Positions 18,862 to 46,700 of a stretch of DNA of 64,000 nucleotides are shown piece by piece. The notes beneath the pieces were generated by a model, which saw only the letters and a list, made by a program, of their open reading frames with translations, was not told where the DNA came from and did no database searches. The stretch comes from Tethya wilhelma (taxonomy: Eukaryota; Porifera; Demospongiae; Tethyida; Tethyidae). The position numbers and the translations under genes are program-made. Position 1 is the stretch's first letter, and each line of letters begins with the position of its first letter. Location: assembly GCA_964030475.1 (NCBI GenBank), contig CAXIPT010000001.1, forward strand, positions 13,250,800 to 13,314,799. The letters are read 5' to 3'.

Positions 18862-21800
18862 TCAAACAACTTTCTGAATGTTTCCAAGAACAAAAGGTTC
18901 AAGTTGATCAGCCAGTTCATCTTGTCCAAAGTCCTTCCTAAACACTCTCACTAGCCACTCCACCACATCCGATGGACTCCCAATACCCACGTCCTTCAAC
19001 TTCTCTTTCCCTTCCTCACTGTTGAGAACTGAGTCATTGTCCTGACTGAAGGAGAAGAATTGAGTCTTATGAGAGTGAGAGGGCCTACCCAGTTTACTTT
19101 CAATCACCTAGAGGTACAAAAAAGACCGGGCCAAATTGTGAGACAATCAGTCGTAACAATCAAAGACAATGGGAGTTAGTTCTTGCAAGAAGTGACTCGT
19201 AACAATGATGGTAATGATTTATGTAATAACTCACTGAGAGCTGTTCTTTGACGACCCTCTTCATGTGGTCTTTGTCAGGATGCTCCCTTTTCTTGGTCAT
19301 GTGTTCAGCATAGAGCTTGTCTCCAAATGTGAGACACACTAACACTGGCACCTCCTCTTTTTGGAGCCTCTCAAGCCACTTCTTAGCTGACTGAGTGTGG
19401 ACTTTCCTATATAGGATAGAGCGGGTATAGTATTATTATTATTATTATTGTAACTAATACGCAACCAAAAGGCGCACAGTGTACGGAAGTCAGGTAAAAT
19501 GAGATAAAAAAAAAGAAAAAGAATGGCAATTAATCACAACATAAAGAAACCACATATTCCTCATCAACAGGAGTAGAGGAAAGACGAAGGCATCTCAGAG
19601 TGCTCCCAACAGTAAAATCGTTCTGTGAGTAAGACTTGCAATATCGAGAAGCATAGTAAGAGTTAAAGCCAGAAAATGAACAGACATTTAAACTACTTGT
19701 ACAAAAAACGAGTTTAACGTACAAATTGATTATGTGAATTACATGATCTAGACAAAAAAGCACAAGAACGATGAACGATTTGATTTAGCAGACTGGGTAG
19801 ACAGGCAGTACAATGCAAGATTCGAGTATGACACCGATGGGGAAGAGACCAGATTTTTCTCAGAGCGTTATTAAAACAGACCTTAAGGGAAGACAGTTGA
19901 GAGCAGTCAAGGCGCTAGAGACAAGACCCATAAAGGGACAGGCAGATTATTATGGTACACTACCATACAAATAAATCCATATGAAGTCTGATCCATAAGT
20001 TATACCCTTAGTCACAGACAAGTGAACACACATGTAGGTATACCTGTAGTCCACTACAAAGAGTACAATCTGGGCAATGGTTAGCAGGAGATCTGCCAGC
20101 TCTCCAATGGTATCATCCTCATCATCCACTCCTGGGAAGTCCACCACATCAAGACCCTCTACACTGGAGTCAAGGTTGTACAGGAATGGCACTGTTGTGC
20201 GTTTCACTTCTGTAGTACCAGTGGGGACCTGGAGGGGAGCCCCGAGGGGGAGAGAGATGAACAATGAAACATCTACTAATTTCTCTTAATTTGTACCTTT
20301 ATTCCAAATAAGGTGTTGACAATCTTTGACTTGCCAGAGTTGACAAGACCTGCCACACCAATTGCAGTGTATTTGGCTAGTTCCTCACGAAGATTATGGA
20401 TCATCAGTGCCCACTTTAGCCAGCGAGCAATTAATGGGCGATCTTCTTTAGCAACAAGTGAGAGTGTAGTTTGTTTGAAGAGTTTGGACCAGTCTCTAGT
20501 AAGAGAGGCTAATGGTGTGGCAGCACTGATATTTCTCTCTTTACAAAGCTCCGCTAGTTGGCACTCAAGGGAGTAGCTGATAAGCTGAGTATTACAGGTC
20601 ACAGTTTTTGCCATTCCTTGGACTATGAATTGTAGTTTGGCAGCATAAGGACCACTGTCACTACCATCTGTTGAAGGGACCACACCAGAGATACTTTGAA
20701 CATAGTCAAAGATTTTCACTAGTAGCTGATCACCACGACACTTGGCAAGCAGTGATTGAACATGAGAGTAGTCAAGACTGAACAGTGCCCACACTCCAAC
20801 TGATGCCATTGCATGTAAACTAACTACATCAGAAGATTCTGCCTGTGGTTTTTGAAGTGATAGAATGATATCTTGTTGATCCATGAACCCTCCAAGAAGA
20901 GATGTACACAGGTTGACATCTTTACTTCGTATTCTATTGATGGCCTCCAACATTTTTTGATTATACTTTAGTGTCAACTTAACTTTGGGCTTTTCTGTAA
21001 CTAGTTCATCCTGCATTTTTCTGGCCAACTTTGATAATTCCATGCGTCCATTGGTTAAAATATGAAAAGGAGAAGCAAGTACTGACACATTTTTTTGAGG
21101 TGTTTCATTCTGGACTGGATAGAGAAGCTCAATGTTCAACCCACTGACTGTTGCAGTGGGAAATGATGAATCAAGTAATAGTTTACTACGTAGTGCATTT
21201 AAATGTTTTTGAATCTTCTTACTTGTCTGGTCTCGCGTAAATTCTCCGACATTAATAGTAGTAAATCCTGTGGGGGGTCCTAATGGAACCATTATTCCAA
21301 ATTGCTCTGAAGCACCAGTAGCCTTAAACTTTATCAAACCTTGTGTTTCGTCAACCTCTATATTATTGTATTGCAAATATGGACTATTCCCAATTTTTTG
21401 TCGAGCCTCAAGTTTCATTGAGTACAAACATCGGCCTGGATAACCCAGTTCCATTCGCTGGTGAGCATTTTCCAAGCCCTTCTCCATCAGTGCCGATTTT
21501 GGTATGCCAATACCACAATTCACCATAACTTCATAACACAGGACTGCATTCTCAAAGGAGCAATTACCAATGGCATATGCAATGCTCTCAAATGGTACGA
21601 CCTTCACAACTTCCTCAAGGAACTTGGTGATGACCTGTAGCTTGTGAGAGAATGGCTCATATGAGCTGTCAGGGTGCTGTTCTAGTAGAGCACTGAGATA
21701 GGCCAGCTCAATCACTTCAGATGGTGAGCACCTGGCTAGTTGTCGCTGTCTTGTCTTGATGCTATAACCCTGTGTAATTATTAATCATGATTATAAATCT

Positions 21801-24800
21801 GGAGGCATATGATATTAGTGACAAATCTAGGATTTAAAGGGGGTTTCTAACTGATTCAGAAGCTAGTGTACAAGAAAAAATTTGGCATCTCCCCCACTAA
21901 GTCTTGTTAAATATGCCCATTTTACAAAAAAACACGCAACATTTTCCCACTTGTATAATACTACAAACTCTGCACTTTATTATGAGCAATGTTGATCACG
22001 CTATACTATATAGCCAATAAGGATTTAAAAAAAAAAATTAATCGATGCTCAAAGTCAAATGTCTAATTTAAGTCTGCCAATATTTTGGTCACCATATATG
22101 AATGTACTTTGCTCACACAAATCATCAAATTTTAAAATATGTTTATTTTAGATTCTGCAAAGCAAACTGTCAAATTTTTTTGGCTATCAATAATTTCAGG
22201 CTCTACAGTAGCTACTGAGGGGGCTGACTAGCTGACTATCTAGCTGTTCTGTGCAAGAATTGCTGCTTTCTAGGCTATTTCTTGTCATTTAACTAGGGAA
22301 ACCCATGGATTCACCAGTGGATATACCTACTAAAATTAGACGTACTCCCTTTACTGTAGCTGTGTTGTTGAAATTTACTAGTAATTTTTGGCAAAGGTCA
22401 TTACATGTATATAATATGTGCAATTGCATGAGCACACATGTGCATGCACAGCATATGCATGCGAAATAATCTCTGGAAAAGTTCAAGCTTGAGCATACAC
22501 GTTTATTTTGCTCTGAAATTTTTAGATGATATAATATACAGTAATACTTAAGGAACAATAATAACATTGCAAAGCATTATATTATATAATTATACCCACA
22601 AAATTAATAGCAATACCCATCAATGTGTGCCATGTGCAATATGAATGCAGCAACATGTGTTACACTTTCTTTTAATATACATACTTTTTCAAAAAAAGGC
22701 ACCTGAAACTTGATTGCTTTTGAAGAGAAGTAAGTGTGGAGTGAAACCATTTCTTTTCTCTCATTTTTTGTGGTCTTCTCTTGACGGCTTTCTCTGGGAA
22801 TATTAAACTGGATAGAGGAACCACTGATCTCCTCAACTGGTGTTGTATGTCCACAAAATGAGACTTGATAGCAAAACCAAAGATTGCTACCCTCAATGAT
22901 AGTAGCTGTTTCGTTGCCATGGTGATGAATGTGAACCTCATCAACAGAAGGTCTCAGTCCCTCAACATTACCAGGAGCATGTTTAGGAGCTGGAGGGAAC
23001 TCATACTTTGGAGGCTTATCCAAGTGACCCACAAAGAGACCACTGCTATACTCTTTGAAGGAATGCTAGATATTAGGTAAGAGACAACAAACTAAATGCT
23101 ATAAAATCTTGATATTACTAATTACTAACCGTTTCATACATCTTTTCATTAAGTAGTCTGGTTTTTACAAGGGTCAGAGCTAGAATGGTGTTCTGATCTC
23201 CCAATAGTTTACTCCACACCAAACCAGACTGTGTCTCACAAGATATCAGGTAGGAAGAAGTGCTTTGTACTCTCTGATCTTTTAGCTTAGGAATCAGTTC
23301 TTCTATCTTAGTTTTCACCTCACAAAAATCTAAACTTGTACCTGAATCCTGTGTAGAAAACAAGAGACAATATATATGTCATTATTGTGAAGATAATTCA
23401 TACAAAAAAGTGTATACTTGCGACAATTGGATTTTTCCCAACTTATCCAAGAGTACTGATGTAGTAGGATCTAGAAAGGGCTGTAGGAGAAAACGGGTAA
23501 ATAACTTTAGTCTTTTAGCCTCAGAAAAGTCCTCAACGAACATAAACTGTAGGAAATAAGCTCATACAAAACTCACAGCTTTTAGCTGAGGAGGTAGTGA
23601 GGCATGTACTCCTGATGTGTTCTTGCTCTGTGCTTCAGCAGCACTCCAGCTCTCATCCAGTAGACTCATTAGACTGGGGACAAGGTCTTCCTCCAAGTAG
23701 ACAGCATGGAGTGTGGACACTAGTTCAGGTCGTCTTCTCACTGCTCTCTGGATGACCTCAACTGACACCAGTGGCTGACCAAATGTGATACAGACCATGT
23801 TGTCTTTGAGGAGGTCAGAACTGATGTAAGGGGAATCCCACACTCGAGCTGCCACAGCACATGCCAGCAGACCACCAAATGAATAACCTGCATGTACAGT
23901 ATGATAATTAAGTGTAAAGAAATTAAGTTTAATAAAAATTATATATAATGTATAAATACCTGTAAGCACAATTCGGTACTGCTTGTTGAGTAACTCAACA
24001 ATGAAGTGAATGGGAAATTGTTCACTTTGAGCCATGATACCTAAACAGGGAAATCATGTGACATTGCATGTGGTCTACACAATAAAAATTGTTTTGACAA
24101 TGCCTCCACCTACCTTCGCTAAAGGACTTAAACTGTTTGGCCCACTGTTGAAGGCTGCTCTCTCCCTTAAAGGCAAAGTAGTAAGTGGACTCTCCCATCT
24201 GAGCAATGAGGAAGGGGCTTTGTTTTGAACGGGACAGGGAGACAGCTCTGAAGGAGTGTCCTGGTACCAGCTCCTTGTTCTTGAAGAACTTTTGGTAGTC
24301 ACCAGCTTCACAAGTGCTCACCACACGACAGCATATACTGGCATGGTAGAGGGTGTCCTTACAGAAGAGAGGGGGGCAAGGTTTAGCTGAGTCACTCTCT
24401 GTAACAGTAAGTGTTGTTGGTGTACGCTTGGCAAACTCTTCAGCAGACAGCTTCTCGGCCTTCCTGAGAGCATCTTCAGAAATTAATAAGTCTTGTCGGT
24501 GAAGCCTCTGTAGCTGAGCTTGAAGTACTTCTTGAGTGATCCCTGACTGAATGGAGGTCACCACAAAGTCACTGACAACATCTTCAATAACTCCTGCTTT
24601 GCGATCACTCTTTGCATACATGAGCTGCTTCAAAGTGTCTATTGTTCTGGAGAGATAACCCATTGGTTGACTTGTACTAGTAGGATAGTCGTCAGGATCT
24701 AAAAATTAATAATTATTAGAAAGATTCACAACTTGATATAATATGAAATTTACCTCTGCTGGAAGTCTCATCACGTGGTCCATTTGTTGTTTGTTTTGCA

Positions 24801-25108
24801 AGACAATATTTCTTCTCCATCTCCTCAGCAAGTTGATTCTCTTCCACAGTCTCATCTCTGAGGCCCTCAACAGCTGCCCTCCATGATGGCTTTGGGTTGG
24901 CTGTCTTCAACCACTCCTTTAGCATCTCACGAAGACAATCTTTAGTGCTGTCATATTGAGAGCCAATGCTGTCTAGAGTAGAGGATGACAGTCCAATAGC
25001 TAGACCAAAGTTGTACCACTGGTTTTGAACTGATAAGAGCTCTTTGAATAACTTGTGAAGATCACTGGAAGATAACATATCTTCAGGAGTTGGTTTCTTT
25101 GTGTCCAT
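18862..25108 (-). CDS. Death domain - lipase-like - GTPase multidomain protein, copy A
   Basis: Eleven exons: 24754-25108, 24114-24698, 23960-24040, 23577-23887, 23418-23480, 23130-23348, 22685-23065, 20297-21769, 20044-20228, 19235-19406, 18862-19107. They join in phase to 1356 residues. Exon 1 is a Death domain (WYNFGLAIGLS, CLREMLKEWL, NQLAEEMEKKY), a protein-protein module of innate immune and apoptotic signalling. Exons 2-4 match a class-3 lipase fold: STYYFAFKGESSLQQW (FRGT strand, altered), RIVLTGYSFGGLLA (GxSxG elbow, Ser near 343), ITFGQPLV and EEDLVPSL (candidate catalytic Asp). Exon 8 (491 residues, unrecognised, helical) ends with GVAGLVNSGKSKIVNTLFG, a GTPase P-loop. Exon 9 adds VDFPGVDD (G3) and exon 10 LTFGDKLY (G4-like). 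There is no signal peptide or membrane span, so it is probably cytosolic. Domain assignment is by motif, and the joint function is inferred. Two paralogues follow in tandem. Confidence 0.85.
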
Positions 25109-25993
25109 TTACCTACATACCATGTGTGCATATGAAAGGTAGCATATTATTATTGCTGGCACCGGTCACTATTCAGTTACATGATTTTGTTTAGTATCGC
25201 TGGCTAGACATGGTTCCCCACTACTCTCACAGGACAGATGTTCTTTATAGGTGGAAAAGAAGAGGGAGGAGGAGAGAAAAGAGAGGAATAATGTCTGGTC
25301 AGGCGCCGGGTTTTGGTATGTATGTGACGTCACATACTTTGCATGTGACAATTAATAATCATGAATAAAATTGAGCACTCAAACTGAGCAAGTTTTGTTT
25401 GTGACCAGATTTAAACTAAGGTTCAAAGGTTGCAAGTTTAATAGCATAAAGTTTAATTTTGTAGAGCAGCCAGTTTGGCACTAGCGGGTTCAAAATTAAA
25501 CTTTAATTTGATACGCACTAGCGGGTTTCAACTTTGGGAATAGTCAGAGACTTTTCTAGGTTACTTATTACAAAATACAGTGATCTGATTGCAAGCACAC
25601 AAAAACCTGGTGATTCGATCTGACCAGACATTCTTTTTCCCTTTTCTCCCCTCCCCTCCCTCTACTGATTTATGGCTGAACAAGTTCAAAGCAGAGAGGG
25701 CGGGACAAGCATTGAAGTCAATGAAGACATAGAAATTTGAAATTAATTTTCATTTGTCTAACCCGCCATATTATTGTAAACTTACCAAACCTAGGCCAAC
25801 AGGCGAGCTATATCTTGAGGGGAGTTAATTGACTCTTTCCCTATTTCAGATAACCACTCTTTTAAATTGAGGTTGAAATCAGAGGTCACAAATTATTGCA
25901 AAATAAAGAATAATGTGGGTGGAGCACTACCACATACAACAATGAATAATTAATTTATGATAAGAGGTATTAAAGCACACATAATTTAATTTC
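25109..25993. other. Spacer between GTPase copies A and B
   Basis: About 885 bp hold the promoter of copy A and the 3' flank of copy B. A direct repeat of GCACTAGCGGGTT(T)CAA occurs at about 25480 and 25515. A near-copy of TCTGGTCAG occurs on both strands, at about 25295 and 25620. There is no gene. Confidence 0.4.
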
Positions 25994-28900
25994 TCAAACA
26001 ACTTTCTGAATGTTCTCATGGACAAAAGGTTCAAGTTGATCAGCCAGTTCATCTTGTCCAAAGTCCTTCCTAAACACTCTCACTAGCCACTCCCCCACAT
26101 TCGATGGACTCCCAATACCCACGTCCTTCAACTTCTCTCTCCCCTCCTCACTGTTGAGAACTGAGTCATTGTCCTGACTGAAGGAGAAGAACTGAGTCTT
26201 ATGAGAGTGAGAGGGCCTACTCAGTTTACCCTCAATCACCTAGAGGAACAAAAAGACCAAATTTTGAGAGTACATTTGTAACAATCAGAGACAATGAGGG
26301 ATAGTTCTTTCAAGAAGTGACTCGTAACAATGATGGTAATGATTTCTGTAATGACTCACTGAGAGTTGTTCTTTGACGACCCTCTTCATGTGGTCTTTGT
26401 CAGGATGCTCCCTTTTCTTAGTCATGTGTTCAGCATAGAGCTTGTCTCCAAATGTGAGACACACTAACACTGGCACCTCCTCTTTTTGGAGCCTCTCAAG
26501 CCACTTCTTAGCTGACTGAGTGTGGACTTTCCTATAGGATGGAGAGAACACTGATAAACACCACCACATGTATGCACAATGTACATTATATCAGTAAACA
26601 CACCCACCTGTAGTCCACTACAAAGAGTACAATCTGGGCGATGGTTAGCAGGAGATCTGCCAGCTCTCCAATGGTATCATCCTCATCATCCACTCCTGGG
26701 AAGTCCACCACATCAAGACCCTCTACACTGGAGTCAAGGTTGTACAGGAATGGCACTGTTGTGCGTTTCACTTCTGTAGTACCAGTGGGGACCTGGAAAG
26801 GATTAAAGCAATTAAGCAACCATTCAATGTATACTTGAACATCACCTTTATTCCAAATAAGGTATTGACAATCTTTGACTTGCCAGAGTTGACAAGGCCT
26901 GCCACACCAATTGCAGTGTATTTGGCTAGCTCCTCACGGAGATTATGGATCATCAGTGCCCACTTTAGCCAGCGAGCAATTAGTGGACGATCTTTTTGAG
27001 CAACAAGTGATAGTGTAGTTTGTTTGAAGAGTTTGGACCAGTCTCTAGTAAGAGAGGCTAAAGGCATGGCAGCATTGATGCTTTTCTCTCTACAAAGTTC
27101 TACCAGTTGGCGCTCAAGGGAGTAGCTGATAAGTTGAGTATTACAGGTCACAGTTTTTGCCATTCCTTGGACTATGAATTGTAGTTTGGCAGCATAAGGA
27201 CCAGTGTCACTATCATCAGCTGAAGGGAGCACTCCAGAGATACTTTGAACATAGTCAAAGATTTTTACTAGAAGTTGATCACCACGACATTTGGCAAGCA
27301 GTGATTGAACATGAGAGTAATCAAGACTGAACAGTGCCCACACTCCAACTGATGTCATTGCTTGTAGATAAACTACATCAGAAGTTTCCCTTTGTGCTCT
27401 TTGAAGGGATAGAATGATATCCTGTTGATCCATGAACCCTCCCAGAAGAGATGTACACAGGTTGACATCTTTACTTCGCATTCTATTGATGGCCTCCAAC
27501 ATTTGTTGATTATACTTTAGTGTCTCCTTAACTTTGAGCTTTTCTGTAACTAGTTCATGTTGCATTTTTCTGGCCAACTTTGATAATTCCATGCGTCCAT
27601 TTGTTAGAATATGAAAAGGAGAAGTAAGAACTGAAACGTTATCTGAAGATGTTTCATTCTGGACTGGATAGGGAAGCTCAATGTTCAACCCACTGACTGT
27701 TACAGTGGCAAATGATGAATCAAGCACTATTTCAGTACGTAGTGCATTTAAATGTTTTTGAATTTTCTCACTTGTCTGGTCTCTTGTAAATTCTCTAACA
27801 TTAACAGTAAGTCCTACTGGAGGTCCTAAAGGAACTATTCTTCCAAATTGCTGGGTAGCAGCAGTAGCTTTAAACTTGATCAAACCTTGAGTTTCGTCAA
27901 CTTCTATATCATTATATTGCAAATATGGACTTTTCCCAATTTTTTGTCTAGCCTCAAGTTTCATTGAGTACAGACATCGACCTGGATAACCCAGTTGCAT
28001 TCGCTGGTGAGCATTTTCCAAGCCTTTCTCCATAAGCGCTGATTTTGGCAACTCAATGCCACAATTCACCATGACTTCATAACACAGGACTGCATTCTCA
28101 AAGGAGCAATTACCAATGGCATAGGCAATGCTCTCAAATGGTACGACCTTTACAACGTCTTCAAGGAACTTGGTGATGACCTGTAGCTTGTGAGAGAATG
28201 GCTCAGCTGAGCTGTCAGGGTGCTGTTCCAGTAGAGCACTGAGATAGGCGAGCTCAATCACTTCAGATGGTGAGCACTTGGCTAGTTGTTGCTGTCTGGT
28301 TTTGATACTGTAAGCCTGTAAATTTCAAGTTATTATATAGTTACAGCTACAAATCTATAGAAGGATAGATACTATACAATAATCAATGATAATGCAAATA
28401 ATATTAACTTAATTGTGCATCATGTGTCACACTTCAACAACCCTCATGCAGAGTTTCCTCACAAGAAGAAGGTCATGCATCTTTACAGAGAGCAGTAGAG
28501 CCCTCCATACACATACCTTTTCAAAAAGAGGAATCTCATATTTGATTACTTTTGAAGAGAAGTGTGTACGGAGTGAAACCTTTTCTTTTCTCTCATTTCT
28601 TGTGCTCTTCTCTTGTCTTTTTCTTGGAACATTGAACTGGATAGAGGAGCCACTGATCTCCTCAAGTGGTGTTGTATGTCCACAAAATGAGACTTGATAG
28701 CAAAACCAAAGATTGCTACCCTCAATGACAGTAGCTGTTTCGTCACCATGGTGATGAATGTGCACCTCATCAACAGAAGGTCTCAGTCCCTCAACATCAC
28801 CAGGAGCATGTTTAGGAGCTGGAGGGAACTCATACTTTGGAGGCTTATCCAAGTGACCCACAAAGAGACCATCACTGTACTCCTTCAGGGAATGCTGCAT

Positions 28901-30689
28901 GTGTAAGGTAAAGTAACAAGGGACAAAGGTTAGAAACTGAACTAAAACCTGGTGATAAACAGCATTGCTAACCTTCTTGTAGATGTTGACATGAAGCAGT
29001 TGGGCTTTTTTAAGTGTCAGAGCTAGGCTGGTGTTCTGATCTCCCATTAATTTACTCCACACTAAACCAGACTGTGTCTCACAAGATATCAGGTAGGAAG
29101 AAGTGTTTTGAACCATCTGATCTGGATCATTCAGCTTGGGAATCAGTTCTACTATCTCAGCTTTCAGCTTACAAAGATCTAAATGTGCATCTAAATCCTA
29201 TGTAAATAACAAAAGACTAAAGAATTAAAATAAAATGATCCATGCAAATCAAATTACTGTATAGTTAGAAATTTTTGAGGAATAAAATTTTCATGGAAAG
29301 GCGATCACTAAACTTTTCGCAATTTTATTTTCAAGGATCATTGCAATACGATCCCAAAAATTTCACAGGTAAAATTTTCATGGATCACCGATGATCCACA
29401 AAAACAGCGAAATTTATATTCCTCGAAAATTTCTAGCTATACAGTATTAGCATACTTGTGGCATTTGTATTTTCCCTAACTTATCCAAAAACATAGATGT
29501 GGTAGGATCCAGAAATGGCTGTAAGAGAAATTTGATTTACTTGAAGCTAACTTTCAGACAAGCTTATAATAAACTCACATTTTTTAGTTCACCTGTAGGA
29601 GGTAATGAGACACATACTCCTAATGCATTCTTGCTCTGTGCTTCAGCAGCACTCCAGCTTTCATCCAGTAGACTCATTAGACTGGGGACAAGGTCTTCCT
29701 CCAAGTAGACAGCATGGAGTGTGGACACTATTTCAGGTCGTCTTCTCACTACTCTCTGGATGACCTCAACTGACACCAGTGGCTGACCAAATGTGATACA
29801 GACCATGTTGTCTTTGAGGAGGTCAGAACTGATGTAAGGGGAATCCCATACTCGAGCTGCCACAGCACATGCCAGCAGACCACCAAATGAAAAACCTGCA
29901 TTGTATATGTTGTTGTGGGACAATATTTACAGCCAGTATACAAGTCTAAACAATAAACTACACCTGTAAGCACAATACGACACTGCTTGTTGAGTAACTC
30001 AACAATGAAGCGAATTGGGAATTGCTCACTTTGAGTCATGATACCTAAATGAGGAAATCATGTGACATGTGATAACAATTGACTCCAACATACTATATAC
30101 CTTCACTGAAAGATTTGAATTGTTTGGCCCACTGTTGAAGGTTGGTCTCTCCCTTAAAAGCAAAGTAGTAAGTGGACTCTCCCATCTGAGCAATGAGGAA
30201 GGGGCTTTGTTTTGAACGAGACAGGGAGACAGCTCTGAAGGAGTGTCCTGGTACCAGCTCCTTGTTCTTGAAGAACTTTTGGTAGTCACCAGCTTCACAA
30301 GTGCTCACCACACGACAGCATATACTGGCATGGTAGAGGGTGTCCTTACAGAAGAGAGGCTGGACAGATGGTTTGGGCACTTGTAAAAGTGAAGCATCTG
30401 GTTTAGACTGTACAAGTTTGGCATGTTCCTCTTGAGCTAGTTGTTGTGATGATGACAACATGTCCTCAGAAATGAGCCGATCTGTATGCAGCCTCTGGAG
30501 GTACTCCAGAAGGAGCTCTAGAGACACTCCTGATTGAAGAGAGGTTACAATGAACTTCCTAATGATATCAGATACCATTGTTGCCTTGACAACACTGTCT
30601 ACATCTTGAAGGTGCTTTAGTGTCTCAATAGTACGCAATAGAAATTGTCTGAGCTGACAAGAAGAGGTAGAAATTGAGTCTTCAATCAT
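25994..30689 (-). CDS. Lipase-like - GTPase protein, copy B, lacking the Death-domain exon
   Basis: Ten exons homologous to exons 2-11 of copy A: 30101-30689, 29964-30044, 29579-29895, 29456-29518, 28973-29197, 28517-28894, 26846-28315, 26608-26792, 26360-26531, 25994-26239. Every phase is the same and the frames are open, giving 1241 residues from the ATG at 30689 (MIEDSIST). The lipase elbow reads TGFSFGGLLA; the P-loop is GLVNSGKS, G3 is VDFPGVDD and G4-like is LTFGDKLY. No Death-domain exon occurs between this point and the stop of copy C at 33786. That stretch is filled by a plus-strand TMC fragment. The exon-2 acceptor of the other copies has become a poor one (TTGAAG), so the true start is uncertain. 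It is either a truncated but expressed paralogue or a recent pseudogene without internal breaks. Confidence 0.8.
29255..29446. mobile_element. MITE copy 2 (about 192 bp) in an intron of GTPase copy B
   Basis: The left end TACTGTATAGTTAGAAATTT and the reverse complement of the right end, TACTGTATAGCTAGAAATTT, form terminal inverted repeats of about 30 bp with two mismatches. Internal sequence holds further palindromic AAAATTTTCATGGA words. TA bounds both ends. No ORF. Confidence 0.8.
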
Positions 30690-30699
30690 ACAATCATGT

Positions 30700-30700
30700 T

Positions 30701-30747
<47 letters not shown>
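30700..30747. repeat. Compound (GT)n(GA)n microsatellite between copy B and the TMC fragment
   Basis: An alternating GT tract passes directly into a GA tract. It lies where the homology of copy B to its paralogues stops and just before the first visible TMC exon. Confidence 0.9.
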
Positions 30748-30784
30748 CACACACCACAGCAATCATCTGATGGTCTTTCTCTAG

Positions 30785-32842
30785 AAGGTATTGTCTCTCC
30801 AGTGGTGATCACAACCTTCAACCTTGTGCTTCCATTTCTCTTCTCCTTCCTGGCTCGCTTTGAGAAGTTCAAAACACAAAGTGGAGAAATCAAAATGACA
30901 CTAGTTCGGTGAGAAAATACATGGATGCTCTGCATGGAGAACATAATTATAATGCTCAAGTCTTTAACTTAAAGTAAAGTAGTTTCCTTGGAGCTGGATC
31001 ATGTTTGCTTTTAAGAAATGTGTGATGGAAATAATGTGTATGCAGCAAATGCAGCAAAACTAAATTTTAATTGTATTCATCATTCATCCTAGAGCTTCTC
31101 TCCCCCCTCCCTCTGTAGGACCATCTTTGTCCGTCTCTCCTCACTGATAGTGCTCATCATCACTCTGTTCATCCTGATCCAGTGCTCTCAGGACACATCA
31201 ATGGACACCATGATGGGAGAGGATGAGAACTGTGCATTTGCAAGTGACTTTTTAGATGACTTCATCACTTCTAACTCCACTGAAACGTGCACTGTGACTG
31301 TGAGTTTGTGTTCACACAGTACAGTTGATATTATGGTGTTTGTTTGTGTTCGTTAGACGAAATAGTATGTGCAGCAGAATTTCAATCCTGTTTTTATTCG
31401 CATGCACCACACACACTCAATTCAAGTTGATATGATGTGAAAAACTTAACTGGAATGTCTTGTCAAGAATCTCAATTTGTGATATTCCCTTACAATAACA
31501 TGCACACACCATCAGTGCTGGGAGACCTCAATTGGTCAAGAGTTCTACAAGCTCGGCCTCACTAACTTTGCCCTATCAGCTGCCAGTACCATAGCAGTAG
31601 AAACATTCAGAAAGTGAGACATTAATAGCATAATAATTGATAATTCATAATAGCTACACTGTAAGTATTCGGAAACCTCTTTTTTGCTCAGCATTGTTTC
31701 ACGATTGAAATTCAAAGGACTTGGGGAAAAAATTGGCAAAGGAAATTTCAATATTCCTAAGAGTATTCTTGATCTAATTTACACCCAATCCCTTCTATGG
31801 TGAGTGCTTCTTCACATCATGTGATACTGTATACACTGAGTGTACCCCCCCCCCCCCCCTTCCATGTCAACACACAGGCTTGGGTTTATTTTCAGTCCTA
31901 TGCTCCCAGCTGTCGTTCTCTTCACTTCATTCATGCTGTTCTATGTGAAGAAGGTAATTAGGAAGCCATTGTTGTTGTTGTTGTTGTTTACCACGAATAC
32001 TATAAATACTTTGCCATGTTAGTAAGGCGGTGCCATATAATGTGCATTGGTATGCTTGTCCCACTACAGTACAGTCTCATCTATAACCTCACTCCTGACA
32101 AGAGAGGGACCTATCGTGCTGCTAGGACAAACTTTCTTTTCTTATTGTTGCTACTAGTGACTCTGTTCATCTTCCTCATCCCAGTTGGATATGCCATCAG
32201 TGGGTAAGAGATGAACAGCTAGGGGTGCTTTAGAAATTCACATCCATAACCATATTATGCTGACCTCCACCCAATACACATGCATGGACAATATTGTTTC
32301 ACACAGCCTGTTTCTTGATAAATAAACAGTATTGATTCTCACTAACTGTTTCTTGGTAAACAAACACTTCACTTTTATAGTCTCAATCCAAGTCGGACTT
32401 GTGGGCCATTTCAAGGTCTTCAGTTTATGTTCAATATTGTGACTAACCTGGTCGATGGGGCATCTTGCACATCACAGCAAGTGCTTGACTTCTTAGCATC
32501 AGCAGGATTTGTGATACCCATCATCATACTGCTACTGTGAGTTGGTATCACTCTAAATGCATGAGTATTCTTTGGTGCATAGTTTAATTCTTGTTAACTC
32601 AAAATGTGTACATCATACAGGTTAGTGATTTATGCTCAGTATGTTCTCCTGAGAACAAGAAAAGCAAGCTTCAGACTTGTCAAGAAACAACTCATTCTTG
32701 TGAGTTCTATTTCTAAGTTAGGACACAGTTCTGCCCACATCTTCAAAATCTTGATTCATAAACACAACATCATTCATTCCTTGAATCCTCTCACACAATG
32801 ACACACATTGCACTGCCATCCACACACACACACACACACACA

Positions 32843-32888
<46 letters not shown>

Positions 32889-32889
32889 N

Positions 32890-32924
<35 letters not shown>

Positions 32925-33223
32925 TCATACAGGAAGGTGCCAATGTGACTCACATTGTGGGCAAGTTGGATGGGGTACTTCAAAAGTTTACAGAGCACCA
33001 GACCTTACAAAACAGTCAGTCCGACCAGAATACAACTGATGGTGGTGGTCACAAGGCTAGGATGAGTGTGGACCACACTGGTAGTCTGGTGACTGTTCCT
33101 CTGAAGGAGAGAATAGAGAAGGTTCGGAAGGAGAGCAGCAACTCCTACGATGAGGAGACCTTGGTGAGGAGGAGGTCAGCCCCCCAGCACCCTGCCCTCA
33201 TGGAAGAGTCAACAGAGAGGTGA
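30785..33223 (+). CDS. TMC: TMC (transmembrane channel-like) protein, C-terminal half only
   Basis: Nine phase-consistent exons: 30785-30908, 31119-31299, 31516-31613, 31692-31799, 31878-31953, 32070-32203, 32381-32536, 32621-32699, 32933-33223. They encode about 415 residues ending in a stop. The family signature CWETSIGQEFYKL is intact. Before it are two spans (VVITTFNLVLPFLFSFLA, SLIVLIITLFILIQC) and after it LGFIFSPMLPAVVLFTSF, FLFLLLLLVTLFIFLIPVGY and a final span around FVIPIIILLL. TMC proteins are pore-forming subunits of mechanosensitive and leak channels with about ten spans and a cytosolic N-terminus. The N-terminal exons are absent: immediately upstream, copy B runs in the opposite direction. 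The tail is Ser/Arg-rich with an acidic-to-basic DEETLVRRRS motif. Reading frames are clean, so truncation is recent or an upstream exon lies elsewhere. Confidence 0.85.
32821..32922. repeat. (CA)n(CT)n-N-(CA)n microsatellite in the last TMC intron
   Basis: CA, CT and CA tracts are joined, with one unresolved base at 32889. The repeat ends about 10 bp before the last TMC exon. Confidence 0.9.
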
Positions 33224-33785
33224 TGACCATGATGAGGAGGAACAACATTGAATGTGTGTGTCATGACTATGTAAAATCAAACTTCTAGTAAATTATTTTC
33301 TCGTAGTCTATCACTAATAATAATAATTATTATATATAATATGTCTTTTGATTGTGAAAGCTCAATGACTATTTATGACATAATAATGTATCTATAGAGT
33401 CTTGATCATACTTTGTGCTTTTAATCCATTCTTTATTGTCAAATCTGAAGGGTACATATGTGAATTCATGGGAGCTATATAGACATTCTAGTTAGTTTAT
33501 AGCCTATGCTATAATACACTAGGTAGTTAGAATTTGAAAAAGACATAATTATGATAACGCAGAATTATCCTTAAAGCTTAAGTCTCCATCCTTTGAATAT
33601 AACTTTACCCCTACATAGTGATGAATTTTGTATTAAATTATAGCTTAGTATAAGTTAATATCAAAAATGCAACCAATACAAAACTTACAATACAAAACTT
33701 ACAACACAGAAGAGTAAGAAACTTAATGTTAGAAAGCAATTTTTTTTGCAAATATGTGCTTTAAAATAGTATTTCATTAAGCTTA
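33224..33785. other. Convergent 3' flanks of the TMC fragment and GTPase copy C
   Basis: AT-rich, with an imperfect repeat of CAATACAAAACTTACAA around 33675-33700. I see no gene and no Death-domain exon that could belong to copy B. Confidence 0.45.
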
Positions 33786-36700
33786 TCAAACAATTTTCTG
33801 AACGTTTCCATGAACAAAAGGTTCAAGTTGATCAGCCAGTTCATCTTGTCCAAAGTCCTTCCTAAACACTCTCACTAGCCACTCCCCCACATCCGATGGA
33901 CTCCCAATACCCACGTCCTTCAACTTCTCTCTCCCCTCCTCACTGTTGAGAACTGAGTCATTGTCCTGACTGAAGGAGAAGAACTGAGTCTTATGAGAGT
34001 GAGAGGGCCTACCCAGTTTACCCTCAATCACCTGGAGGAACAAAATAATTGCATTACTAAAGAAGTGACTTACAAATAATTATGTGTATTGACTCACTGA
34101 GAGGTGTTCTTTGACGACCCTCTTTATGTGGTCTTTGTCAGGATGCTCCCTTTTCTTGGTCATGTGTTCAGCATAGAGCTTGTCTCCAAATGTGAGACAC
34201 ACTAACACTGGCACCTCCTCTTTTTGGAGCCTCTCAAGCCACTTCTTAGCTGACTGAGTGTGAGCTTTCCTACAGGATGGAGAGAGTTTGTGGTTCACTA
34301 CTATATACATAAATATGTATGTATGTATAGCCAGAGTGGCGCCACGGCACTCACACATAACCTAAAGTCACAGATGAATAAACACACCCACCTGTAGTCC
34401 ACTACAAAGAGTACAATCTGGGTGATGGTCAGCAGGAGATCTGCCAGCTCTCCAATGGTATCATCCTGATCATCCACTCCTGGGAAGTCCACCACATCAA
34501 GACCCTCTACACTGGAGTCAAGGTTGTACAGAAATGGCACTGTTGTGCGTTTCACTTCTGTAGTACCAGTGGGGACCTGGAGGGGAGGGGGAGAGATGAA
34601 CAATGAAACATCAAATTGATGTATGTTCATCTTTGTACCTTTATTCCAAATAAAGTGTTGACAATCTTTGACTTGCCAGAGTTGACAAGGCCTGCCACAC
34701 CAATTGCAGTGTATTTGGCTAGCTCCTCACGAAGATCATGGATCATCAGTGCCCACTTTAGCCAGCGAGCAATTAGTGGACGATGGATTTTTGCAACTAG
34801 TGAGAGTGTAGTTTGTTTGAAGAGTTTGGACCAGTCTCTAGTAAGAGAGGCTAGTGGTATGGAAGCATTGATACCTTTCTCTCTACAAAGCTCTACTAAT
34901 TGGCATTCAAGAGAGTAGCTGATAAGTTGAGTATTACAGGTCACAGTTTTTGATATTCCTTGGACTATGAACTCTAATTTAGCAGCATAAGGACCACTGT
35001 CACTGTTATTAGCTGAAGGGAGTACTCCAGAGATACTTTGAACATAGTCGAAGATTTTCACTAGAAGTTGATCACCACGAGATTTAGCAAGTAGAAGTTG
35101 AACATGAGAGTAGTCAAGACTGAACAGTGCCCAGACTCCAACTGATGCCATTGCATGCAGAAAAACCACATTAGAAGTTTCTGTTTGTTGTCTTTGAAGA
35201 GCTATTTCTACATTCTGTTGATCCATGAACCCTCCTAGAAGAGATGTACATAGGTCAATATCGTTACTTTTAATCCTATTTACAGTTTTCAACATCTGTT
35301 GATTGTATTCCTGTGTCATCTTCACTTTAGGTTTTTCTGCAACGAGTTCATGCTGTGCTTTGCTAGCTAACTTTGCTAGGTCTTTGCGTCCTTTTGTTAG
35401 AATATGAAGAGGAGAACCTAGATTCTGAACTGGCATATTATTCTGTGGTGTTGTAAGTTTGACAGGGTAGAGAAGCTCAATATTTGACCCACAGACAGTG
35501 GTGTTTAGCAATTTATCTGAAGATACCTCACAATACAGAGCATATAAATGTTCTGCAATCTTCTCATTTGTCTGATCTCGTGTAACTTGTCCAACATAGT
35601 AGTTAAAAGTAAGTTCTGTGGGAATTCCTAAAGCCTTAGGAATCAATTCATCCCAGTGTGCTAGTTCAGAAATATTAGCACTAGCTTTGTACTTTATTTC
35701 ACTATGTGATTCATTAACTTCAAAATCACTGTATTCTACTCTAGCACTCGGACCACAAAGATTTGCAATTCTTAGTTGTGTCTCACCTGTCATTGAGTAT
35801 AGACATCGACCTGGATAACCTAGCTGCATTCGTCGATGAGCATTTTGTAAACCTTTCCACATAAGGTCTGATTTGGGTAATTTAATACCACAATTCACCA
35901 TGACCTCATAACACCGGACTGCATTCTCAAAGGAGCAATTAGCAATGGCATAGGCAATGCTCTCAAATGGTACAACCTTCACAACTTCTTCAAGGAACTT
36001 GGTGATGACCTGTAGCTTGTGAGAGAATGGCTCAGATGAGCTGTCAGGGTGCTGTTCTAGTAGAGCACTGAGATAAGCCAGCTCAATTACTTCAGATGGT
36101 GAGCACCTGGCTAGTTGACGTTGTCGTATTTTGATGCTATAACCCTGCAAAATTTATCAATCATGCATGCATGCTTGCAAATGTAGAAGGATGATTATCA
36201 TCAAATTTTAAACAGTCCAATAAGTAAACAAATCAATAATAAGAAATAAATTGGATGACAGTGTCATCTGTATTGTATACTTTTACCTTTTCAGACAAGG
36301 GAACATGAAACTTGACTGGCTTTGAAGAGAAGTGTGTATGGAGTGAAACCTTTTCTTTTCTCTCATTCCTTATGTTCTTCTCTTGACTGTCTCTTGGAAC
36401 GTTGAACTGGATAGAGGAGCCACTGATCTCCTGGACTGGTGTTGTATGTCCACAAAATGAGATTTTATAGCAAAACCAAAGATTGCTACCCTCAATGACA
36501 GTAGCTGTTTCGTTGCCATGGTGATGAATGTGAACCTCATCAACAGAAGGTCTCAGTCCATCAACATCACCAGGAGCATGTTTAGGAGCTGGAGGGAACT
36601 CATACTTTGGAGGCTTATCCAAGTGACCCACAAAGAGACCATCGCTGTACTCATTGATGGAATGCTATAAGTTATTATAACAACATATATAACCTACATA

Positions 36701-38763
36701 AAAGTTCATTTATAATTGCCTGATGACCAACCTTTTCAAACATGTTCACGTTAAGTTTGTTTTTTTCAAGTGTTTGAGCTAGTGTGCTGTTCTGATCTCC
36801 CATTAGTTTACACCATACCAAACCAGACTGTGTCTCACAAGATATCAGGTAGGAAGAAGTACTTGGTGGGTATTGATCCATCAGGGCGGTCAGTTTGGGA
36901 ATTAGTTCTCCTATCTTAGTCTTCATTTCAATAAGATTCAAATCTAAAACTATATTCTATAAATTTGAAGTTCAGTATTATTATGCATGGTTACGCATAC
37001 CACAGGCTGAAATAAACATACTTGTTTCAATTGGATTTTTACTAATTTATGCAAAAGCACTGATGTGGTAGGATCTTTAAAGGGCTGTGAGAGAGACAAT
37101 TAAAGATTATTATGCAAAGTTAATTAACTTCCCATTGTAGGCACACTCACAGCTTTGGATTCAAGTAGCAGTGTGTTCTTGCTCTGTGCTTCAGCAGCAC
37201 TCCAGCTCTCATCCAGTAGACTCATTAGACTGGGGACAAGGTCTTCCTCCAAGTAGACAGCATGGAGTGTGGACACTATTTCGGGTCGTCTTCTCACTAC
37301 TCTCTGGATGACCTCAACTGACACCAGTGGCTGACCAAATGTGATACAGACCAGGTTGTCTTTGAGGAGGTCAGAACTGATGTAAGGGGAACCCCACACT
37401 CGAGCTGCCACAGCACATGCCAGCAGACCACCAAATGAAAAACCTGTTTATATTCAGAAACACATGAATAAAAAATAACAACTCAAAAGATATCCATTTA
37501 CCTGTAAGCACAATACAGCACTGCTTGTTGAGTAACTCAATAATAAAGTGAATAGGGAACTGGTCACTTTGAGCCATGATACCTAAAGGAGAAAACAAGT
37601 AACATTATGGTATAGCTTCAGTGAAAATATCTCTACCTACCTTCACTGAAGGACTTGAACTGTTTGGCCCACTGTTGAAGGCTGGTCTCTCCCTTAAAGG
37701 CAAAGTAGTAAGTGGACTCTCCCATCTGAGCAATGAGGAAGGGGCTTTGTTTTGAACGGGACAGGGAGACAGCTCTGAAGGAGTGTCCTGGTACCAGCTC
37801 CTTGTTCTTGAAGAACTTTTGGTAGTCACCAGCTTCACAAGTGCTCACCACACGACAGCATATACTGGCATGGTAGAGGGTGTCCTTACAGAAGAGAGGC
37901 TGGACAGATGGTTTGGGCACTTGTGAAGATAAAGTATCTTGTTTAGACTGTAGGAGTTTGGCATGCTCCTCTTGAGCTAGTTGTTGTGATGATGACAACA
38001 CATCCTCAGAAATGAGCCGGTCAGCATGCAGCCTCTGGAGGTGCTCCTGGAGGAGCTCTAGAGACATTCCTGATTGAAGAGATGTCATGATGAACCTTTT
38101 GATGACATCATGAACTACTATTGTCTTCCCAGCACTCTCTAAATCTTGAAGGTGCTTTAGTGTCTCAATAGTATATAATAGAAGTTGTTTTGGGTGATGA
38201 GAAGTCGTAGAAATTGAATCTGTATGTGTTTTGTGTATGTGTGTATGCTAATATGCCAATACAGTATACGTACTGTACTACACAATATCCAATTCCGTGA
38301 GTCCGTCAAGTTATACATCATGCCTTATATTTGGAATACACACATAACAATTTATATCTCAGAGGCAAATGTAAAATCCACACTGAAATTGTACTAGTCT
38401 CGCGGGCCAGACTCTTCCTAAGGGAAGGGGCTAGTCCACGAGACTACACTGAATTGTACCAGATGAAGTGCTGACAGTTTCTGAACAATATTTCCTCTCC
38501 ACCTCCTCAGCAAGTTGATTCTCTTCCACAGTCTCATCTCTGAGAGCCTCAACAACTGCCCTCCATGATGGCTTTGGGTTGGCTGTCTTCAACCACTCCT
38601 TCAGCATCTCACGAAGACACACCTTGGTACTGTCATTCTCCTTCTTGATGCTGTCTAGTGTTGTGGACGACAGCCCAAGAACTAGACCAAGGTCATACCA
38701 CTGGTTTTGAGCTGATAGGAGCTCTTTCAATACTTGAAGTAAATCTTTTGATGATAATGTCAT
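33786..38763 (-). CDS. Death domain - lipase-like - GTPase multidomain protein, copy C
   Basis: Eleven exons with the same phases as copy A: 38460-38763, 37641-38219, 37502-37582, 37151-37443, 37022-37084, 36732-36956, 36287-36664, 34639-36144, 34392-34576, 34098-34269, 33786-34031. They encode 1343 residues. Exon 1 is the Death domain (QWYDLGLVLGLSSTTLDS, CLREMLKEWL, NQLAEEVERKY). The lipase region keeps TGFSFGGLLA, ITFGQPLV and EEDLVPSL; the GTPase keeps GLVNSGKS, VDFPGVDD (followed here by QDD) and LTFGDKLY. The middle of exon 8 differs strongly from copies A and B (for example EEVVKV then MTGETQLRIANL, DELIPKALGIPTE). The C-terminal GTPase exons and the lipase exons are almost the same in all three. 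This patchwork suggests gene conversion or selection acting on one segment. It is the most upstream member of the array and lies beside TMEM186. Confidence 0.85.
38396..38447. repeat. Short inverted repeat in intron 1 of GTPase copy C
   Basis: TAGTCTCGCGGGCCAGAC and the reverse complement of GGCTAGTCCACGAGACTA pair with few mismatches around a short purine-rich loop. It resembles a small dispersed hairpin repeat. Confidence 0.55.
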
Positions 38764-39154: not shown

Positions 39155-39820
39155 CTACTGGTCAGGTATTCCTAAAATTTGCAACATTAGGTGATGGTCC
39201 ATCACATGTCCATATCTTAAGCTGTAGAAGAACACTTCTGGATGACCAGTGATCTCCAGTCTCTGAACTGCACTACCCATTGTCTTTTGACTGTCTAAAA
39301 ATGGCACAACTTTCTCTACTGAAAAGTTCAGGTCTCTGCGTCCACCCATAAAGGTGAGGGTTGATACTTGAATGCTTGTATTGTTCGGACAATACATCAG
39401 TGCACCAATAGTTCTTCTGAAATAATGGCTCAGTACAACTAGCACTGTTGTAGTACCTAAGGCAGCAATACCAGCACCACTTAGTGTCCTTGATGTGATT
39501 TCACCTAGGTGGTGCCAATACGCCATTGGGGGCAAGAGAAGAAGCATCGTAGAGACTTGATAGAGTTTTAATCTTGAGATGAATCTGAAAAGACGAATTG
39601 TGGGCAGCTTATACAGCAACACATTTTCTTCAGGAGTGCACTGAGGCATGTGAGGAGTTTTAGAGTGGGAAGAGAGGCAGAACTGCTGTGCTTTAGAGGT
39701 TCTCTTGGATAGTTCATAGTCACATACTCTTTCTTTGTTGATACAACTCTTCAGCAAGGTTGAACGTCTTAGATTACGATGAAAAAGTACACACCATCTT
39801 TTACACCATGGTTGAAACAT
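39155..39820 (-). CDS. TMEM186: TMEM186, mitochondrial inner-membrane protein of complex I assembly
   Basis: A single exon of 221 residues from the ATG at 39820; the frame also opens from a TTG at 39826, which was not used. An Arg/Cys-rich leader without acidic residues suits mitochondrial import. The core VLLYKLPTIRLFRFISRLKL is followed by span 1 (STMLLLLPPMAYW) and span 2 (GIAALGTTTVLVVLSHYF), then RRTIGALMYC, STLTFMGGRRDLNF and YFFS-like FFYSLRYGHVMDHHLML. This order and wording match vertebrate TMEM186, which works with the MCIA complex (ECSIT, NDUFAF1, ACAD9) as recalled from the literature. It is divergent from the KDEL receptor gene and shares a short promoter with it. Confidence 0.85.
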   Translation of the reverse strand: MFQPWCKRWCVLFHRNLRRSTLLKSCINKERVCDYELSKRTSKAQQFCLSSHSKTPHMPQCTPEENVLLYKLPTIRLFRFISRLKLYQVSTMLLLLPPMAYWHHLGEITSRTLSGAGIAALGTTTVLVVLSHYFRRTIGALMYCPNNTSIQVSTLTFMGGRRDLNFSVEKVVPFLDSQKTMGSAVQRLEITGHPEVFFYSLRYGHVMDHHLMLQILGIPDQ

Positions 39821-40004
39821 GTTCAAAGGTTAAAGTTCAACACGTGGCCGGAAGTAGGCAAACCAATGTTAGTTATCAAAAGTTATTTCTCTTCGGGGAT
39901 AGTGCCACGTGTCGCTTTTTGTGCTCACCTTCAAACAAAGCGTGCATTGTGATCAACTTGTCAGTAGTCAGTAAAGCTGGTCTGTTCGGAGCTCAGGTGA
40001 TACA
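39821..40004. promoter_or_regulatory. Bidirectional promoter of TMEM186 and the KDEL receptor
   Basis: Only 184 bp separate the two start codons. The interval contains ACACGTGGCCGGAAGTAGG near 39841-39859, an E-box overlapping an ETS/GABPA-type CCGGAAGT. A second CCACGTGT lies near 39904-39911. A CCAAT box (39862-39866) lies between them. No TATA box is seen. Confidence 0.6.
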
Positions 40005-43704: not shown

Positions 43705-46700
43705 TCACCACTTGGAGTGTCTGTTCAATGAATCATGACTTGTTACACTTGTCACTGGTCTCAAATCTGAAATCAATCATGTGTGTATGAAAGGGCCACA
43801 AGATTATATTTTAGGCATGATTGTGTTGGCAATGTAAAGAAGTGAGCGAGTGAGTGAGTGAGTGAGTGAGTGAGTGAGTGAGTGTAGTGAGGGAGCTGGT
43901 GGGAGGAAATAGGGAATCAGTATTTAGACTAGGAGTTGGACTCAACAGACAGCCTTACCTTGGTTGGGGACTGATCTGTGTGGTTTGATGGTGGCATTGT
44001 ACACCACCTGTCTGTTGTTGGTCAGTTGGATGTCACTGCAAACAGAAACCACATTGAAGATGTAACTTTGAAGGACTAATAATCACAATAAAATGAATGT
44101 CTATAGAGTATGGAAAGCTGTAAATTAAACAAAGATTGGCTAATGCATTTAGCACCATTGCATACAGAGTAAAATAGCCAACTCAATAACATTACCACAG
44201 AACACAACTGTCCTAGTAGAGTATTGACAAGATATAATACCTCTGTGTTGATTCTCTCCCGGTGGTCTGGCATTGGAGGAGATCCCTCTCTCTCAGGGAG
44301 ATGAGGAATGGCTCAACAGGTGGAGAGAGGGTGGGGAGGATCCCGCGAGCATAGGAGGGTACAGAGGGCACCGTACCAGTGTACACCAGGAGATCATCCA
44401 CCAACAACTATACATTAGGAACACAAAATTTTGATTATTGGATGTACAACACAAACAATAGCAAGCTATATAGTAACCACAGGTTGCTATGGACTTATCT
44501 TTAGATACCACAGCTTTCATAAAATTTTCATAGTTGCCATGGAGTCATTTGGTAGCTAATGAGCCCAGAGAGTCTTATAGAACTACATCTTTTTGAGAGT
44601 CTAGCTATGAAAAATAAGTCCATAGCAACAACATTGAGAGCTAGTAACCACCCTATAATATACTTTAAAATGTGTTTATGGCAACAGAGATTACAGACTG
44701 CTAAAGATTAGCAACATTGGAGTCTACAGCTACTAAAAAAATGAATCTTCAGCAACAACTGTATAATGAATCTGCAGTTACTAAAATAAGTAAAACTCTC
44801 AATGCTACTATTGACTCCCTTTTGGTAGCTACTCACTGTTGCTGCTATGGACTCATTTTAGTAACTACAGACTCTTTTGTGGACAGTATATATACAGCTA
44901 CAGACTCTCTTGTTGCTATCATTGTAGAATCATTTTCTACTATTATTAGTAGCTACAGACTCCCTTGTTGCTGTGGAGTCATTTTAGTAACTATGGACTC
45001 TCTTGTGGACTCATTTTTAGTAGCTACAGACTCCCTTGTTGCTGTGGAGTCATTTTAGTAACTATGGACTCTCTTGTGGACTCATTTTTAGTAGCTACAG
45101 ACTCCTTGTTGCTCATTTTAGTAGCTACAGACTCTCTTGTTGCTATGGACTCATTTTAGTAGCTACAGACTCTCTTGTTGCTATGGACTCATTTTAGTAA
45201 CTATAGACTCTCTTATGGACTCATTTTTAGTAGCTGCAGACTCTCTTGTTGCTCATTTTAGTAGCTACAGACTCTTGTTGCTATGGACTCATTTTAGTAG
45301 CTACAGACTCTCTTATGGACTCATTTTTAGTAGCTACAGACTCTCTTGTTGCTACGGACTCATTTTAGTAGCTACAGACTCTCTTGTTGCTATGGACTCA
45401 TTTCAGTAACTACAGACTCTCTTGTTGCTCATTTCAGTAGCTGCAGACTCTCTTGTGGAGTCCTTAGTGAGTCCAAAGCAACAAGAGAGTCTGTAGCTAC
45501 TAAAAATGAGTCCATAGCAACAGTGAGAGTCCACAGTTACTAAAATTATGAGCACTATTGATCATTTGTAGCTATCACAAATGAGTACATTGGCCATAGC
45601 TACACTGAGAATCTGACTAGCTGCTGAACATCAATGCTGCCATGTACTCATACACAGAGAGCCTTTATATTCAAACCGAGAACATAGCTTAGCACTTGTA
45701 CTACAAAAGACTATTCAGGTACACATACTCACAGCAATTTCTTTGGCACCTCTGCTAGGTGTCTTGGAATAGTTCCACATCTTCATCATGGACACCCTCC
45801 TAGGCTCATCAAAGATAACATAGACACTGGTGGTGATGGTGGGCAGCAATGGAGCCAGCCACATGTGGCGACCATCACTGGTATCATAGACACCATCTAT
45901 CAACTTGTCTGCTGTCCGGACGTCCCCACTGACCCCTGGCAGCACATTGACACTGTCAGGGAAGGCTGCTAGATCTGAGGGAGGTGGAACAGGTTAGGGA
46001 GAACTGAATACAGAATGTAGAATATTAGAACTTAGAATATCAGCAGTCAGTCAAGTTAGTGGTAAAAAAAAAAAGATTCTCTGTGTGGTATTGAACACAT
46101 ATCATGATCAAAATCATAACTGAACCGTCTTTCTATGATCTCATTCTTATCCCTCCACTGGCACGAGTGAATGCACAATGTTATAATGATTGAAATGAAT
46201 GCTGTCCTTCTATCCTCTGTGTATCATGCAACTATACACGATGCATGAGGAGTATAGTATGTATTAGGAGGATACTGTCTTCAGTGAGTGCTATCCTGAC
46301 TCCAGCTTCATCATACACCTCCAGGCCATTAAGACCAATGTAATAGGGGTCGCCCCATGAGCTGAGTAGCTGTAACTGGTAAACAACTGATCAGTGGGAG
46401 TTAAGAAAGTGGAACTGCTTTCTTTATGGTAGATATTATCAGCTGGCTACACATAGCTCTGTATGTATGATTATGGACTAGGATACATCCTATTGGTAGA
46501 ACGGATTCACTGATTCCTTCTTTGTGCTGGCTGCTTTGGGTGGTCTCAAAAGAGATGAACTGACCAAAGTCATACTGCACATGACCTGGAGCTCTCCTCA
46601 GCAGCCACCCAGAGTCAGGGGAGACCAGCTCACCATCGACAAACACATGGAGCACCTTGGCCTGGGATGGTTGAAAGGACAGGTATAACAACATTGTACA

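Follow-up and report, generated by a model that had tools for sequence, protein, structure and literature searches.

A tandem array of genes joining a Death domain, an EDS1-like lipase domain and a GTPase in the sponge Tethya wilhelma

A 64,000-nucleotide stretch of contig CAXIPT010000001.1 from the sponge Tethya wilhelma (hereafter the window) contains adjoining genes in which a Death domain, a lipase-like region and a GTPase appear to be encoded in one chain. This locus raises the question of whether these parts truly belong to single proteins, where the lipase-like part stands among known hydrolase folds, and for which function such proteins may have been amplified in a sponge.

Gene models and domain order of the array

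Three complete genes were identified on the minus strand at positions 38763-18862 of the window, using exon models assembled by hand from GT/AG splice sites; no model has an internal stop, and each ends in a stop codon. Gene 1 (33786..38763) has 11 coding exons and encodes 1343 residues comprising a Death domain, an EDS1-like lipase domain, a TIG-like domain, a helical region and a GTPase. Gene 2 (25994..30689; 10 coding exons, 1241 residues) follows the plan of genes 1 and 3 without the Death exon, and gene 3 (18862..25108; 11 coding exons, 1356 residues), called copy A in an earlier note on this DNA, matches Pfam Death, Lipase_3 and MMR_HSR1. Genes 1 and 3 show the exon phases 1-1-1-0-0-0-0-0-2-0; gene 2 differs in lacking the first junction and starts within the equivalent of exon 2, and no Death remnant was found upstream of it (best E 2.5 within 30601-33800). 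The rebuilt models agree with the array span, exon phases and copy A residue count of the earlier note, and they bear out its description of minus-strand genes with a common exon plan, one of them (gene 2) lacking the Death exon alone. Protein identities between pairs of array genes are 76, 80 and 84% (76% for genes 1 and 3), and three adjoining genes of such similarity support tandem amplification, as had been proposed.

The whole-protein Pfam scan covered gene 3, together with the Death exon of gene 1. Exon 1 of gene 3 (24754..25108, minus strand, as are all exons below) and exon 1 of gene 1 (38460..38763) each encode a Death domain and end in phase 1, with Pfam Death scores of 29.8 and 32.2 bits on the exons alone and of 24.4 bits for residues 17-73 in the whole gene 3 protein (cut-off 22.6). 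In gene 3, exon 2 (24114..24698) encodes a fast-evolving linker (residues 119-225) followed by the N-terminal half of the lipase fold. Exon 4 (23577..23887) carries the nucleophile elbow GYSFGG and the motif EEDLVP with the proposed catalytic Asp, based on the Lipase_3 match, the family alignment and the profile match to EDS1/PAD4/SAG101. Exons 5-7 complete the lipase fold with its C-terminal half and add a beta domain weakly resembling IPT/TIG, which in exon 7 (22685..23065) follows the proposed catalytic His (HSFKEY) at the exon start. Exon 8 (20297..21769) encodes a mostly helical stretch of about 460 residues, which has no named relative, followed by the P-loop GLVNSGKS. Helices are present in this region in the predicted model of the relative P0008, the family alignment has most of its invariant columns there, and exon 8 of a dispersed copy gave no match to PDB sequences at E<=1. 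Exon 9 (20044..20228) contains the GTPase switch region with a DFPG motif, identified from the alignment and the MMR_HSR1 match, exon 10 (19235..19406) the G4-like LTFGD placed by alignment, and exon 11 (18862..19107) the C-terminal 81 residues and the stop of the exon model.

These exon models and the Pfam matches of gene 3 support the order Death, lipase-like region, GTPase given in the earlier note, which had also counted about 700 residues of unknown sequence; that count is too high, since it includes the second half of the lipase and the weakly IPT/TIG-like domain, and it shrinks to the 460 or so residues of exon 8. In the HMM search of copy A that the note had proposed, Death, Lipase_3 (residues 332-415; 36.2 bits, cut-off 22) and the GTPase family MMR_HSR1 (residues 1135-1243; 39.6 bits, cut-off 21.9) all exceeded the Pfam cut-offs. 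The last two scores rule out a search empty of lipase or GTPase signal, an outcome that the note had considered.

Dispersed copies and relatives in other sponges

The source genome (124.6 Mb in 204 contigs) contains at least 53 exon matches (34 of 291 candidates scored), which fall on the array, on the dispersed copies L039, L040 and L041, and on other genes sharing only the Death region. Exons of the three dispersed copies are 32-69% identical to those of gene 3. A first database search, in which scoring covered the 7986 candidates with the most words in common, returned 10 relatives, from Halichondria, Amphimedon, Geodia, two 'Em' entries that we take to be Ephydatia muelleri, and jgi records; all named relatives among the scored candidates are sponges. 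P0006 and P0009 are 99% identical in sequence and may represent one gene. A lipase-plus-TIG profile search yielded 60 further clusters, mostly exon-sized pieces. Six clusters (P0017, P0019, P0020, P0025, P0063 and P0066) are on contig(s) of equal size, 297,890 bp, which suggests that gene clusters also occur in other genomes.

A tree built on 16 rows, starting at exon 8, has long branches for L041 and P0010 and weak deep forks. In it the array forms a separate clade (100/100), L039 groups with Halichondria (100/100), and L040 and L041 fall with P0003/P0008/P0011 (93/97, drawn open). Judging from these placements, the family probably divided before these sponges diverged from one another.

Relatives also bear on whether separate genes might have been joined by the models, which we consider very improbable. 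The splice models are hand-made, and outside the window Death, Lipase_3 and GTPase never pass their cut-offs together in one relative: P0004 from Amphimedon combines Death (22.7 against 22.6 bits) and GTPase with a lipase part that is degenerate, and P0001 from Halichondria combines lipase and GTPase with a Death match below threshold. The sponge search suggested in the earlier note recovered lipase/GTPase relatives, but the full triple over cut-off was seen only in the window. Against a joining artefact, the three array copies have common junctions, with which those checked in L039 and L040 agree. In addition, P0011 encodes lipase and GTPase in a 1436-aa frame, and its contig of 4553 bp is too short to accommodate ten introns, so these two parts share one frame. 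Single NCBI-named proteins are known from Halichondria panicea (P0001, P0002) and Amphimedon (P0004, P0006). The possibility of separate transcripts, raised in the earlier note, is thus countered for lipase and GTPase, while the linkage of Death is more weakly supported.

Searches of the open-licence literature turned up no description of a Death-lipase-GTPase architecture or of an EDS1-like protein in animals, in line with the earlier statement that no family with this domain order was known, and no word starting with 'lipase' occurs in the main texts of PMC8195603, PMC12909245, PMC8242945 and PMC6208332. The family is apparently undescribed and built on known immune themes. One such theme is the Death-fold/TRADD-N multidomain expansions of marine animals, which resemble the array in combining a Death-superfamily unit with variable modules; according to excerpts from PMC8195603, they occur in Amphimedon and others, and the variable part in an oyster can include AIG-type GTPases. 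In contrast to the array, the Amphimedon modules in these excerpts are ankyrins, SH3-LRR, kinases, caspase and similar, with no mention of lipase.

The lipase-like and GTPase domains

A lipase-domain profile was built from seven of 14 family rows, with incomplete-triad rows mostly left out. Against PDB sequences it ranked 14 distinct EDS1, PAD4 and SAG101 sequences on top (E 1.9e-11 to 4.4e-6), and the first lipase appeared only after this family (E 7.7e-4). P0010, which is 21% identical to gene 3 in the alignment, alone also retrieved 13 EDS1-family sequences on top, with weak values (E 1e-4 to 0.011). Class 3 lipases (including diacylglycerol lipase) share with the array the GxSxG elbow, Asp and His in order, and the Lipase_3 cut-off is passed; they differ in that the control L043 from the same genome, diacylglycerol-lipase-like by reading, matched fungal lipases first (2e-8) with no EDS1-family sequence among its 34 PDB matches. 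A fold search with the P0009 model gave EDS1 13.1 (8b28), PAD4 12.8 (7xey_B), SAG101 11.6 (7xjp_B) and Rhizomucor lipase 11.5, which for this predicted model is a near-tie. Judged from the profiles, the lipase domain is nearest among solved structures to EDS1/PAD4/SAG101, not to lipases, and this is nearness rather than descent.

EDS1 proteins are described from seed plants only, as non-enzymatic scaffolds despite their S-D-H residues (excerpts of PMC8813719), and the sponge family lies outside these plants. Different from EDS1/PAD4/SAG101, the sponge proteins add Death or CARD in front and the TIG-like, helical and GTPase regions behind, and no EP bundle was seen: the P0009 model (mean pLDDT 47) shows beta strands at 712-811, behind the lipase domain, and the Pfam matches of gene 3 include no EP family, although a diverged EP could escape such a scan. 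It seems doubtful that the sponge domain is an animal EDS1 counterpart sharing descent or logic with the EDS1 of plant TIR-NLR immunity and wired to Death/CARD and GTPase in one chain as a ligand-gated, GTP-timed cell-death switch. If true, an EDS1-type lipase-like domain joined to death-fold adaptors of animals and to a GTPase would connect two immune systems whose parts are considered separate.

The Ser-Asp-His triad is complete, by alignment or reading, in all six copies found in the source genome (genes 1-3 and L039-L041), and ester or lipid hydrolysis would be expected of the window copies. The catalytic His is assigned by alignment rather than from a confident model of any window copy. 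In the first family alignment of 14 rows, two of which (P0007 and P0008) fail to cover all three sites, the triad is complete in seven of the other 12: genes 1-3, P0001, P0003, P0005 and P0010. Ser is replaced by Thr in P0002 and His by Tyr in P0011, and P0004, P0006 and P0009 lack more residues. The usual oxyanion motif of lipases is Gly-Thr, which is not kept in the window copies, where the alignment shows FKGE. The family would serve as a testable model of a hydrolase fold recruited to immunity, in which some copies look catalytic and others have lost the site.

A catalytic hydrolase in the window copies is part of the immune-switch reading that we tentatively favour below. Its main rival, rather unlikely in our estimate, is the same switch with a non-enzymatic hydrolase fold, that is, an EDS1-like scaffold and small-molecule or partner-binding domain in which triad residues would be retained for structure or ligand binding. 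The non-enzymatic nature of the nearest solved relatives by profile argues for such a scaffold, as does the incomplete triad in five of the 12 fully covering rows, including P0002, which is 86% identical to triad-complete P0001. By contrast, the intact triad even in L039-L041, given the divergence of their exons, and the lack of a visible EP bundle for partner binding (in the low-confidence P0009 model and the gene 3 Pfam matches) point away from it.

The GTPase resembles Era/EngB/HydF-like proteins (MMR_HSR1) in its G1 and G3 motifs (P-loop and DFPG; alignment) and in passing the cut-off. It differs at G4, where the array has LTFGD and the nine relatives covering this motif and the three dispersed copies have LT[HY]AD instead of NKxD. 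A non-immune role in membrane-lipid remodelling or trafficking, with a dynamin-like GTPase controlling the lipase and the death fold acting only as an oligomerisation tag, is improbable. The Lipase_3 fold, the GTPase adjoining it and a Dynamin_N match that barely reaches the cut-off in gene 3 (27.1 against 27) would suit this role, but Dynamin_N stays below the cut-off (16.4-23.4 bits) in all seven relatives with a match row (P0001, P0002, P0003, P0004, P0008, P0009 and P0011) among nine scanned, P0005 and P0010 having no row. Moreover, the remaining GTPase matches favour HydF/Der/EngB/Era and eIF5B types, and the Death-CARD exchange and tandem copies described here would, in our judgement, be unusual for housekeeping trafficking genes.

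Death folds, divergence and a candidate switch

Death is present in genes 1 and 3, P0004 and P0009, and P0010 has two CARDs at the same position (44.4 bits). The dispersed copy L040 has a separate first exon with a weak resemblance to CARD (E 0.012, below cut-off). As in the Death exon, the end of this exon is in phase 1, and it is 30% identical to the N-terminus of P0011, a region in which P0011 has no Pfam match. A first exon swappable between Death and CARD suggests an adaptor role. The source genome contains at least 150 Death matches (150 of 591 candidates scored). Sponge Death and CARD genes have been treated as immune genes (PMC12909245, in excerpt), and some sponge Death genes respond to microbial signals (PMC6208332, in excerpt).

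The array proteins are under selection, with whole-CDS dN/dS of 0.37, 0.39 and 0.32 for the gene pairs and of 0.00-0.15 in the GTPase, where dN is 0.000-0.009. Low dS (0.05-0.17) in the GTPase and in lipase residues up to 445 is consistent with gene conversion, a pattern not shared by residues 446-539 (dS 0.42-0.57). In linker 119-225, genes 1 and 3 differ by a dN of 0.53 with dS saturated, next to a dN of 0.02 in the adjoining lipase part of exon 2; gene 3 differs from the others by a dN of about 0.5 with saturated dS, and genes 1 and 2 by a dN of 0.17 and a dS of 0.27. DNA identity also falls to 58-60% in a stretch of exon 8 between gene 1 and the others. Both the linker and this stretch are candidates for recognition. 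Multigene receptor families show a diverged part beside conversion-like blocks, an arrangement resembled by the diverged linker of the array beside its low-dS lipase and GTPase blocks.

Our tentatively preferred reading, drawn from sequence, is that the array encodes sponge signalling proteins that are cytosolic, carry a death fold and are gated by GTP, most likely for microbe-triggered immune or cell-death responses. At rest, the C-terminal GTPase and its helical neighbour would hold the protein in a closed state; sensing of a ligand, perhaps through the fast-evolving linker or an EDS1-like pocket, would induce nucleotide exchange, and the protein would then assemble and offer its N-terminal Death (or CARD) to partners by like-with-like contacts, with the hydrolase-fold domain serving mid-chain as effector or sensor. 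We infer this switch, and with it the immune role, from the three domains above curated cut-offs in one gene, the exchange of the N-terminal death fold, the very low GTPase dN and the diverged linker beside conversion-like blocks, the complete triad in the source genome and its abundant Death matches, and the sponge Death/CARD literature (excerpts of PMC12909245 and PMC6208332). Counted against it are gene 2 without Death, the full triple over cut-off being seen only in the window, the triad losses in relatives, FKGE for the oxyanion Gly-Thr, and LTFGD for NKxD. The array proteins are good candidates for a hitherto unknown switch of immunity or cell death in early animals.

Animal NLRs (Death- or CARD-NACHT-LRR), whose NACHT genes are expanded in sponges (PMC12909245, in excerpt), likewise have an N-terminal death fold and an NTPase expected to act as switch. 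They differ in that gene 3 has no NACHT, NB-ARC or LRR among its Pfam matches at E<=1, and in that the nucleotide domain of the array is a TRAFAC-type GTPase at the C-terminus, with a hydrolase domain mid-chain. Three features of the family had been overlooked in the earlier note, namely the EDS1-like character of the lipase part, the replacement of Death by CARDs, and the frequent loss of catalytic residues in relatives.

Divergence of the array and its neighbouring genes

The three array copies (window 18862-38763) form a mosaic in which blocks of 95-100% DNA identity, corresponding to the lipase and GTPase, adjoin blocks of only 53-60% identity, a pattern that fits gene conversion. The genes around the array look ordinary: neighbours located at window 6475-8010, 8888-11344 and 53787-55514 on the plus strand and at 39158-39829 and 46633-47346 on the minus strand resemble Kelch-like BTB, tRNase Z, DNAJC11, TMEM70/186/223 family and DUF4457 proteins. 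Domain matches also identified a minus-strand hAT transposase-domain open frame of 694 aa (window 47750-49831) with C17orf113 zinc finger and hAT dimerisation domains and a DUF4371 match slightly under the cut-off, which is possibly a DNA transposon, perhaps recent, or a domesticated gene.

Domain order of a distant relative

The distant relative P0010, a jgi record, carries, in order, a CARD, a long intervening stretch, a second CARD, the lipase and a GTPase that stops shortly past the P-loop. Approximately 170 residues between the CARDs look like a domain, suspected to be TRADD-N; a Pfam scan of these residues returned no match.

Dispersed copies and Death domains across the genome

At L039, one locus with a dispersed copy, an N run (~3182-3272, reverse complement) immediately precedes exon 2 and may hide exon 1. 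Approximately 34 kb from the dispersed copy at L040, a Lipase_3 match with four in-frame stops (G000:C1:17879346-17879657) may represent a lipase exon that has been disrupted, or the alignment may extend across an intron. Whole-genome searching revealed at least 150 Death-domain matches, a lower bound with 150 of 591 candidates scored, and many of these lie in clusters (e.g., C7 1.43-1.50 Mb and C10 2.386-2.399 Mb).
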